Virus record (IMG/VR): IMGVR_UViG_3300017772_000001
Span: 1-64,000 of that record
Direction: 5' to 3' (one strand)
Origin: a virus
DNA: 64,000 bases
The position numbers and the translations under genes were made by a program. Positions within the stretch are counted from its first letter, which is position 1. Every line of letters starts with the position of its first letter. Shown here in pieces: positions 34,634-38,076 of the stretch. The notes under the pieces are model-generated. The model was not told the DNA's origin. It searched no databases and saw only the letters and a list, made by a program, of their open reading frames with translations.

Positions 34634-35694
34634 TTATAATATCGGTGTGCCTGCTTTTTTGCTCATTTCAAAGTTCTGGTCGATAATCTCATTCAGATGT
34701 TTGATATGGCCCACTGGCATTTCATGAAGTTCAGAGATTGAAACCCCTCCTCTCATGTACCAAGATAATTGTAACAGATTCTTATGTACTTTGTCAAGCT
34801 CTTTTTGAAAGTTTTTTTGTTTTTCTACAATTTCTTCACCGCTGGCGGTTGCTAGCCAGCTTAGGAAAAATTTGCAGGGTTTATTTCAATGTTTACTTTT
34901 TCTGTAGATTGACACTCTGGGCATGTGAATTCGAATGTATTCAATGATTCTGGCTTCTTAGCAATAGTTTTAACTCTATTGTCCATGCTAGTAACTACTT
35001 TAGTTGGAACGTTAGCAAGAAACTCAATAATTTGTTTCTTGTCTGATACGTTACCATCTGGTGTTTCTATATGGTCTATAGTTTCAGATATTAAGTCCAC
35101 ATTATACTCTGCTACACGTTTGAAACTTTTGTAAAATCTTTTAGCAAGTTCCAACTCATCCTTTTCATCTTCCATAGTGTGCTTTACATTATCGATGATT
35201 CGCTTTTCTTCAAGCTGGATAAGAGCAACCCGTGTAACACTTTCTAGTGTTGGTGGTCTTAAATGTATTGTTAAGTCTTCATATATTACAGGCTCTACCT
35301 CATTAATTTCTGGGAACTTGTTTAATACAAAGTCAATATCTATATTGAATTCATTTTGGTTTTCACACTCTTTACATTTGTGCGTATATGTAACGTCTTT
35401 TCCATTTGTTGCATATTGTATTGCCAAATAAAGAGCCTCAGCATCAATGTTACACAACTTTCTTGCATCTTTGATACTAGGAACACAGCTTTCTATTAAA
35501 GATATTAACGCCTCACCATTAAGAAGTGCATCTGGATTACGCATTGTAATCTCATCGATTGCAGTCATAGGCATAACACCCACTTCTTCAATAATGGTTT
35601 GGTCAATTTCTGGATTAAATTTGCCTTTAGTTGGCAAACTAACATATAGTGCTGGCTTTCTAAAGTATTTGTTCAGCGGGTTGTCGGTCATCAT
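34634..35694 (-). CDS. gp26-gp51-like fusion made by -1 frameshifting
   Basis: If ribosomes slip -1 at A-AAT-TTT (34873..34867), gp26 continues for 77 residues instead of stopping at 34861, giving a 353-residue product. The extension starts FLSWLATASGEEIVEKQ and contains LLQLSWYMRGGVSISELHEM then HIKHLNEIIDQNF. This is a coherent helical protein with the Trp-Tyr-x-Arg-Gly-Gly pattern of the downstream half of tail chaperones. A perfect 6-bp GC-rich hairpin (34860..34855 with 34846..34841) sits 6 bases after the slippery heptamer. The arrangement mirrors lambda gpG/gpGT. The next gene across the intergenic gap on the other strand is the tape measure, as expected for a tail chaperone. Confidence 0.75.
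34841..34873 (-). promoter_or_regulatory. Programmed -1 ribosomal frameshift signal
   Basis: Slippery AAATTTT in the correct phase (codons AAT TTT), then TCC and stop TAA as a 6-base spacer, then hairpin GCTGGC-loop of 8-GCCAGC. All three canonical parts are present. Confidence 0.75.
34861..35694 (-). CDS. 26: Baseplate hub assembly / tail chaperone gp26-like protein
   Basis: 277 residues, starting with two Met codons (MMTDNPLNKYFRKPALYVSL) after AAGGAA. The family opening FRKPALYVSLPTKGKF, then MPMTAIDEITMRNPDALLNG, then LIESCVPSIKDARKL are typical of the T4-like gp26 group. Two CxxC knuckles, Cys107/Cys110 (CKEC) and Cys258/Cys261 (CPEC), probably bind zinc. It acts in tail assembly near the tape measure rather than as a stable tail part, by analogy with lambda gpG. 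The last codons form the frameshift site. T4 gp26 is 208 residues. Confidence 0.85.
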   Translation of the reverse strand: MMTDNPLNKYFRKPALYVSLPTKGKFNPEIDQTIIEEVGVMPMTAIDEITMRNPDALLNGEALISLIESCVPSIKDARKLCNIDAEALYLAIQYATNGKDVTYTHKCKECENQNEFNIDIDFVLNKFPEINEVEPVIYEDLTIHLRPPTLESVTRVALIQLEEKRIIDNVKHTMEDEKDELELAKRFYKSFKRVAEYNVDLISETIDHIETPDGNVSDKKQIIEFLANVPTKVVTSMDNRVKTIAKKPESLNTFEFTCPECQSTEKVNIEINPANFS

Positions 35695-35802: not shown

Positions 35803-38076
35803 ATGGCTGAAGGAAATGTTTACATTGAAGGTATTGATCCTTCCATCCCGGGATGGGCAACTGAGACTACTATGGCTCAGATACGTCAAATATTGGCAAC
35901 AATATCTGGTAACTCGGCTGAGACAAGCACAGCATTAGATAAAATTTATACAAGCGAGAGCGGAGACGCTCAAAAACAGTATAAGATATTGCATGATACG
36001 TTAGGTGCAGTTAGGACACAATCACAAGAGACTGCAAAAGCCACACAAAAAGAACAGCAAGAAAGTGCAAAAAATACAATTCATCAAAACAAAATAGCTG
36101 GATTTTTTGAAACACTTATAAGACAAAACGAAACACAAGCAAATATTTTAAAAACTACCGCAGAAAGACAGCGTGAATTAGCAATTAACAAAAATATCAC
36201 TGCACAAGGCGGCGATATGACTGATGCTACGACCAGAGAACTGGCAGGCATGAAATACGATGAAGAAGCATTAGCAGAAAGATTTAAAGAAGCAGGCAAA
36301 GTCGTATCAAGAGCGGCAGTAGGAATTTTAGCAACGACTAAAGCTATTAACAGCTTTATGGGACAACAAACAGAAGACAGATTTAACATGGCACAAGAAA
36401 TTAGACAATCGGGTCTAATGGCAGGCCTTTCAGATGTAGAGTCTGGTCTTACAAGTATGTCTAAAATGATACACGAAAACAATTTCACATTAGGTGAAGC
36501 GGCAGAATTTACAAAACAGTTTTCAAGGTCTGTTGGTATTGTAGGAGTTAAATCATCTTTGGAATTCGCAAGTTCTTTGCAGAAAGCACGTAGTGAAGGC
36601 GGACTTGCTATGACAGCCGAATTCGGACTTGAGTTTGGAGAAATAACTTCATTGGCAGGTGAGTACTTAGACTCATTAAGAAATATGGGTGTACTTGACA
36701 GAATGAGTCAACAGCAATTACGTGATGGTATGGACGATTTCATGTCAGGCGTTTCGTCAACTGCAAATGTTTTAAAAATAAACTTAGAAGATGCGGCTAA
36801 GATGATTTCGCAAACTCTACAACGTGACGATGTAACATCAAGATTGGTTACGATGGATCCTAATAGAGCAAACGCTATTAGAGAAACTATTGGCTCAGCG
36901 GGAATGTTAGAAGGTACATTGGGACAGGCAGTTATTGAAAGAATGGCGGCAGGAAGCCAAGGTGCATTTGTACGTGAGCAATCATTCCAACAGTTAAGTG
37001 GTACAGGTATTGGTAAAGAATTACTTCCAATTGTAGAGCGTCTTGCGATGGCAGGCGAACAAGGACCAGAGGCATTTCAAACTGCTATTGCTGATTTGTC
37101 TCCCGATATTCAAGGCATTATTGCAAGTGCAAGTCAAGAAGGCAATCGTGCAGTTTTACAGACAGACCAATTTTTGCAGTCAATGATTGCAGATTTGTCT
37201 CGTCTTAGAGCAACGGTTGAAGATGCAGATAAAGGACCAACTGGCCCATCAGAAGCAGACAAGGCTGTGCTAGAAGGAATTGATACAAGAAGACAGGCGG
37301 TAGTTGCCCTTGAACAAGTACTTGACGAACAGGTTAAAGGTTTTACATCTATATTAGGCGAACAAAATACTGCAAATAAAGCCTTATTGGCAGAAGCAGT
37401 AGAATTTGCAAACACATTTAGTCCACTAGCATCAACAGTAACACTACTAACTGGTAAATTTGATGTTGCGGTAACTGACCTACAAACAAGTTTGTTAAGT
37501 GCTGGCACAAGTATTGTCGATTGGGCAAACAAAATAGTGGGCGCTGAGGTTTCTGAAAGCCAGACAGATAGTAGTAATGAAACAAGAGACATACAAACGG
37601 CAACAGATTCTACGTTAGAAACAGGCAGAGAAGTTCTAAATCAAAATGATTTAACCAAGGACGACCGAAACATTATTAAAAGAGTATTTACTGATACCGA
37701 TGCTGAAAATATGTTTGATAAAATCAATAGTATACTGCTAACTGAAGGACCAAATAAAAGCGAAGATATCGCAGATGATTTAAAAGATTTGACTAAACTA
37801 CTTGGTTTGTTTAAGCCAGGTGAAGAATACGGCGAAACTCAGGCGGCACAATTACGAGCAGTTATGGAAGCAATCGGAACTACAGATGCGTCAAAGACTG
37901 AGGAAGGCCAAGAAAATATGAGATTAATGATACAAGCATTAGAAAACCTAGAAACCAAGTATACAAGCATTAATCCTGGGTCTTATTTTGGAAGAGACAA
38001 CGTTGAAAATGCGGCAGAGAAAGATGCAGTATTAATTGAATTACGTAATCTAGTGAATGCGTTAAATAATAATTAA
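35803..38076 (+). CDS. 29: Tail tape measure protein (gp29-type)
   Basis: 757 residues, almost entirely helical: long Gln/Ala/Glu-rich heptad regions (about 50-180) followed by a hydrophobic segment AVGILATTKAINSFMG near 175, a middle domain and a further coiled stretch. T4 gp29 is 590 residues and sets tail length. Assignment rests on helical composition, late-promoter control and adjacency to the gp26-type frameshifted chaperone; there is no other tape measure candidate in the window. The reverse orientation relative to the chaperone gene is unusual. It ends 58 bases before the portal gene. Confidence 0.75.
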   Translation: MAEGNVYIEGIDPSIPGWATETTMAQIRQILATISGNSAETSTALDKIYTSESGDAQKQYKILHDTLGAVRTQSQETAKATQKEQQESAKNTIHQNKIAGFFETLIRQNETQANILKTTAERQRELAINKNITAQGGDMTDATTRELAGMKYDEEALAERFKEAGKVVSRAAVGILATTKAINSFMGQQTEDRFNMAQEIRQSGLMAGLSDVESGLTSMSKMIHENNFTLGEAAEFTKQFSRSVGIVGVKSSLEFASSLQKARSEGGLAMTAEFGLEFGEITSLAGEYLDSLRNMGVLDRMSQQQLRDGMDDFMSGVSSTANVLKINLEDAAKMISQTLQRDDVTSRLVTMDPNRANAIRETIGSAGMLEGTLGQAVIERMAAGSQGAFVREQSFQQLSGTGIGKELLPIVERLAMAGEQGPEAFQTAIADLSPDIQGIIASASQEGNRAVLQTDQFLQSMIADLSRLRATVEDADKGPTGPSEADKAVLEGIDTRRQAVVALEQVLDEQVKGFTSILGEQNTANKALLAEAVEFANTFSPLASTVTLLTGKFDVAVTDLQTSLLSAGTSIVDWANKIVGAEVSESQTDSSNETRDIQTATDSTLETGREVLNQNDLTKDDRNIIKRVFTDTDAENMFDKINSILLTEGPNKSEDIADDLKDLTKLLGLFKPGEEYGETQAAQLRAVMEAIGTTDASKTEEGQENMRLMIQALENLETKYTSINPGSYFGRDNVENAAEKDAVLIELRNLVNALNNN

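Follow-up and report, generated by a model that had tools for sequence, protein, structure and literature searches.

Frameshifted tail assembly chaperones of the lambda gpG/gpGT type were reportedly described by Xu, Hendrix and Duda in 2004. In that system, slippage by -1 close to the 3' end of the chaperone gene yields a minor long form, and a review gives a ratio of 30:1 for lambda (PMC5009743). A -1 shift at a T-rich site is also used by the tail chaperone genes of Vandenendeviridae and Andersonviridae, where the extension is usually annotated separately (PMC12846349). In phage T4, gp26 and gp51 are listed among the hub assembly chaperones, and gp51 is required yet is not present in the particle (PMC3004832). 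The record of one Acinetobacter T4-like phage names gp26 and gp51 as tape measure protein assembly chaperones.

Two papers cite a 2022 study of T4-like phages by Vladimirov, Gautam and Davidson (Virology 566:9). The PRFect paper (PMC10885494) cites it for phages that, instead of frameshifting, have a short gene and, separately, a long fused one, and PMC12846349 cites it for slippery sites rich in T in the chaperone genes of T4-like phages. As far as these citations convey the study, the principle is already known for T4-like chaperones, and the gene described here is a further member. What is new is the wide occurrence of the arrangement beyond Straboviridae, a fixed codon at which different heptamers replace one another, the differing stem designs, and a group of phages whose extension lacks a start codon.

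The gene lies in a 64-kb stretch of DNA (the window) that is part of an 81,343-bp IMG/VR virus fragment, and it is read from the minus strand. Judging from its sequence, it very probably codes for a tail assembly chaperone in a giant marine phage of the T4 superfamily, made as a short form and as a -1 frameshifted long form (Table 1). The codons at the junction read GCA AAT TTT TCC TAA on the minus strand. The spacer between heptamer and stem occupies positions 34866-34861, and the hairpin arms pair 34860-34855 with 34846-34841. The fusion would carry 276 + 77 = 353 residues. Every component named in the initial annotation, including the heptamer and its phase, the stop codon, the 6-base spacer, the 6-bp hairpin, the 77 open codons in the -1 frame and a fusion of about 353 residues, was confirmed. 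A stop at 34888, six codons upstream of the extension, closes the -1 frame, and thus the extension has no far upstream start. In addition, the 91-nt junction region has a more stable fold than all 200 of 200 dinucleotide shuffles (z -2.8). A short alternative pairing (ACC/GGT) near the hairpin was judged weaker and was set aside.

Table 1. Coordinates of the predicted frameshift gene, its signal elements and the neighboring gene in the window.
Feature	Position	Strand	Evidence or remark
Short isoform, gp26-like gene, 277 aa	34861..35694	-	PF12322 T4_baseplate 7.6e-18; PHROG 150 baseplate hub 3.7e-23
Slippery heptamer A_AAT_TTT	34867..34873	-	Read directly; right phase; canonical in 48/48 distinct relatives
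0-frame stop TAA	34861..34863	-	One codon (TCC) between heptamer and TAA
Putative stimulatory hairpin, stem GCTGGC/GCCAGC of 6 bp, loop of 8 nt	34841..34860	-	6 nt past heptamer
-1 extension, gp51-like, 77 codons	34637..34867	-	Stop TAA 34636-34634; conservation, dN/dS, cyanophage gp51 alignment
gp26-51 fusion, predicted long isoform, 353 aa	34634..35694	-	Sequence reading and homology
757-aa low-proline virion protein, candidate tape measure	35803-38076	+	Divergent neighbor of chaperone gene; adjoins portal

A slippery heptamer in a single genome is weak evidence and suggestive only, because comparable heptamers near gene ends are expected by chance. In-phase heptamers occur in the window at a rate of 0.0032 per codon (59 in 18,574), which predicts about 1.8 within 15 codons of the ends of its 38 ORFs; one was observed, the gp26 site. 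Comparative data therefore decide. Four aligned fusions used as a query returned 80 loci, and with two more loci from a further search these represent 48 distinct junctions. All 48 carry a canonical in-phase heptamer at one fixed place, on the codons of a conserved N-F or F-F. The heptamer is A_AAT_TTT, T_TTT_TTC, both of these overlapping (AAATTTTTTC), or, in one relative (L101), part of a T run. Named jumbo phages with T_TTT_TTC include Atu_ph07, Phosso, 121Q, PA5oct, SCTP-2 and Vibrio 2.275.O, and XacN1 has T_TTT_TTT. The extension is 75-79 codons long throughout. The 0-frame stop lies anywhere from 0 to 13 codons past the slip site and shifts independently; thus the extension is in register with the slip site and not with the 0-frame stop. 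All close IMG/VR relatives likewise retain heptamer and extension. A nucleotide-level search of a phage collection gave no match.

The pairwise dN/dS values of the extension range from 0.08 to 0.27 and are mostly near 0.1, and comparable constraint was not seen in its other two frames. Judged by these ratios, the extension is under purifying selection. Among 83 control ORFs from the same loci as the relatives, nine show a heptamer close to the stop codon, and one has a -1 extension of at least 60 codons. Although such a heptamer is not rare in one genome, the notion that heptamer and open frame coincide by chance and yield no product is contradicted by the uniform conservation of the signal and by purifying selection on the extension, which leave it a negligible probability.

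Several relatives carry an ATG at or near the gp26 stop (ATGA in Phosso, TAATG in 121Q, and an ATG 2 nt past the stop in S-PM2 and P-SSM2), and these ATG-led extensions carry gene annotations. This raises the possibility that the extension is a separate gene, like the 'gp51' of cyanophages, whose translation begins at a start codon of its own or through stop-start re-initiation. However, the first ATG of the window's extension is codon 38, which falls within the conserved WYMRGG motif and has no ribosome binding site. For 28 of the 48 relatives, including those of the window's type, there is no ATG, GTG or TTG between the opening of the -1 frame and extension codon 25. Just one candidate extension start among the 48 is preceded by a Shine-Dalgarno-like motif, and the extension of HTVC008M is also without a nearby start codon. 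As far as start codons reveal, the start-less group excludes independent translation of the extension. Re-initiation also leaves the constant retention of a slippery heptamer unexplained, and we consider a separate gene very improbable. The initial annotation had called for an alignment of heptamer and extension across related phages, and had named loss of the heptamer, stops in the extension and an independent start as findings that would count against frameshifting. In the alignment both elements are kept in every distinct relative, no stop interrupts any of the 48 extensions, and the window offers no usable start. Thus, its central proposal, a -1 frameshift fusing gp26 to a gp51-like extension, is strongly supported.

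At least three stem designs are found downstream of the slip site among the relatives, and compensatory changes occur in the stems of three groups, one with a short hairpin and two with long-range stems. In the window's group, the short hairpin begins 6 nt past the heptamer, and 96.3% of cells are paired (18 sequences) versus 12-56% in slid controls. Its outer pair changes from G-C to A-U in three of the 18 sequences. Covariation support for this hairpin on its own is modest because its arms encode the conserved WL..AS. The group of Atu_ph07 and Phosso has an 8-bp stem with arms about 60 nt apart. Pairing in this stem is 100% across nine sequences, and two of its pairs are altered on both sides. 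A third group has a similar long-range stem with arms about 70 nt apart that is 91% paired. No clear stem was identified in the group of L062-L075 and L099. In the window's group, identical codons are used more often in the first ~35 codons of the extension than in most of the remainder. This is compatible with a constraint on the RNA, and A-rich codon usage may contribute.

The slip sites are T-rich, with T5 in the window and T6 to T8 in relatives, so RNA polymerase slipping on the T run, and not the ribosome, might be the source of the -1 product. However, T5 is a short run for slippage by bacterial RNA polymerase. Moreover, each of the two heptamer types is an exact fit for tandem tRNA slippage and is always in phase, and the stems begin at ribosomal spacing. 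Polymerase slippage is very unlikely to be the source of the long form, and ribosomal -1 frameshifting is the reading we adopt.

The gap 3' of the extension spans about 600 nt and holds a candidate large structured RNA of about 500 nt (window positions 34572-34016, minus strand; core 34341-34225) that lies directly downstream of the extension. This strongly covarying RNA has no match in Rfam and is apparently undescribed. Its sequence identity is about 94.5% where the gp26 protein is 86% identical, and 89% where gp26 is about 66% identical. RNAalifold gives a value of -79.8 for 16 relatives versus -3.6 (sd 2.0) for column shuffles, and 46 of 81 pairs are changed on both sides with few broken cells. 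A possible pseudoknot (CCGUUGR/YCAACCG) also seems to covary by eye. A covariance model of the core matches a sister group at the same locus (L092, L077 and L094; E 1e-5 to 5e-4), on the opposite strand. In L061 and L081, the gap after the chaperone gene contains a Polynucleobacter-1 RNA (Rfam RF01718; 3338-3471, minus strand; 90-94 bits), and in L081 the new RNA model has a weak match near this RNA. The frameshift gene and the downstream RNA might be conceived as one functional module, for example with the RNA taking part in tail assembly or tuning the ratio of short to long form. However, the related domain on the opposite strand in the sister group is a point against a role in cis, and we regard a shared module as a long shot.

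Homology searches place the gene in the T4 superfamily. The short form matches PF12322 with 65.4 bits (cut-off 24.5), and T4 gp26 and T4 gp51 each match this same family. T4 gp51 covers the full PHROG 150 profile, whereas T4 gp26 stops at position 235 of 282. In S-PM2, P-SSM2, HTVC008M, Cr30 and phiM12, the final part of the profile is found in an overlapping frame directly after gp26. A profile of 53 jumbo-phage fusions aligns over its full length with a profile of the cyanophage, T4, RB49 and CfP1 proteins (probability 98.6%, P 1e-15); the two FF pairs coincide, and the extension falls on the gp51 tail. Compared by itself with the gp51 tail, the extension shows only moderate similarity (hhalign 66%, P 5.5e-5). 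The relationship becomes visible only when the profiles of both partners are deeper, as seven fusions compared by hhalign with single T4 gp51 or gp26 gave no match (13.6% and 4.7%). The extension alone has no Pfam match and no significant PHROG match. Its AlphaFold2 model is compact and all-helical (mean pLDDT 89). No significant match was found for this model among viral models, or for gp26 among solved structures in the PDB. By homology, then, the window gene is a member of the T4-superfamily tail assembly chaperone family, with gp26 as the predicted short form and gp26-51 as the predicted long form.

Among the homologous proteins of T4 and cyanophages, the short form likewise ends near a conserved FF, and the long form adds a C-terminal helical part. 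The -1 layout of the window recurs in S-PM2 and P-SSM2, but with T_TTT_TTC in place of the window's A_AAT_TTT and its adjacent hairpin. The gp51 tail of cyanophages and T4 is about 60 aa, whereas the window's extension is 77 aa, includes WYMRGG and has no start codon. The annotated gp51 'baseplate hub assembly catalyst' of S-PM2 (NC_006820, 151190-151363) and of P-SSM2 (NC_006883, 7217-7390) coincides with the -1 extension, and these 'gp51' genes are probably -1 frameshift tails of gp26 and not independent genes. In T4 itself, gp26 and gp51 are indeed encoded by separate, divergently oriented full-length genes, in contrast to the single frameshift gene of the window, and the end of T4 gene 26 carries no heptamer.

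A frameshifted form in a T4-like phage had been considered notable, but this view does not hold. Besides the jumbo phages, six of the seven non-Straboviridae genomes examined have the -1 signal: S-PM2, P-SSM2, HTVC008M, Cr30, phiM12 and phiW-14 all pair a -1 extension with T_TTT_TTC or T_TTT_TTT at FF codons. Among the genomes examined, 26 and 51 occur as two separate, full-length genes only in Straboviridae. On these sequence comparisons, frameshifting appears to be the usual arrangement in the wider T4 kin, with the two separate genes of T4 as the exception. We infer from this distribution, rather than from a rooted tree, that Straboviridae split an ancestral frameshift gene. The Rhodothermus phage RM378 (L122) is an exception of another kind. 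Its gp26-like ORF ends at 2043, and from a T7 run onward a gp51-like ISISELRVIAYMYTQQLEEQ segment continues in the +1 frame. RM378 may use +1 shifting or polymerase slippage in place of -1.

Other described chaperones differ from the window gene. No sequence relation to lambda gpG/gpGT was found for the window gene, whose neighboring gene is divergent. The Vandenendeviridae and Andersonviridae genes, which were compared by description, use a GTTTTT motif and belong to other phage lineages. The initial annotation had likened the locus to the lambda device next to the tape measure. The frameshift device bears this out, whereas a recognized tape measure does not adjoin it, and the 757-aa neighbor is a candidate only. 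This protein has no similarity to the T4 tape measure gp29. Its position next to portal is conserved: the equivalent site in 121Q, PA5oct, Phosso and SCTP-2 is taken by proteins of 734-947 aa, and the PA5oct record marks its counterpart as detected by mass spectrometry.

We infer the frameshift itself, the ratio of the two forms and their binding partners as follows. The majority of ribosomes would terminate at TAA to give the short gp26, and a minority would slip by -1 with tRNA-Asn and tRNA-Phe on A_AAU_UUU to give the fusion, with the downstream hairpin presumably promoting slippage. The helical tail of the fusion would be the counterpart of gp51. By analogy with lambda gpG/gpGT, both forms might cover the tape measure protein at a constant ratio, the extension might recruit tail-tube or hub subunits, and the short and long forms might depart before the tail is completed.

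Our findings indicate that much of the T4 superfamily, giant marine phages and cyanophages among them, produces its short and long tail chaperones by -1 frameshifting. The separate genes of T4 look like a derived split of a single frameshift gene, and the annotation of gp26 and gp51 is corrected in many genomes. The relatives studied combine two interchangeable heptamers with three stem designs at a fixed codon and constitute a natural experiment on frameshift signals.
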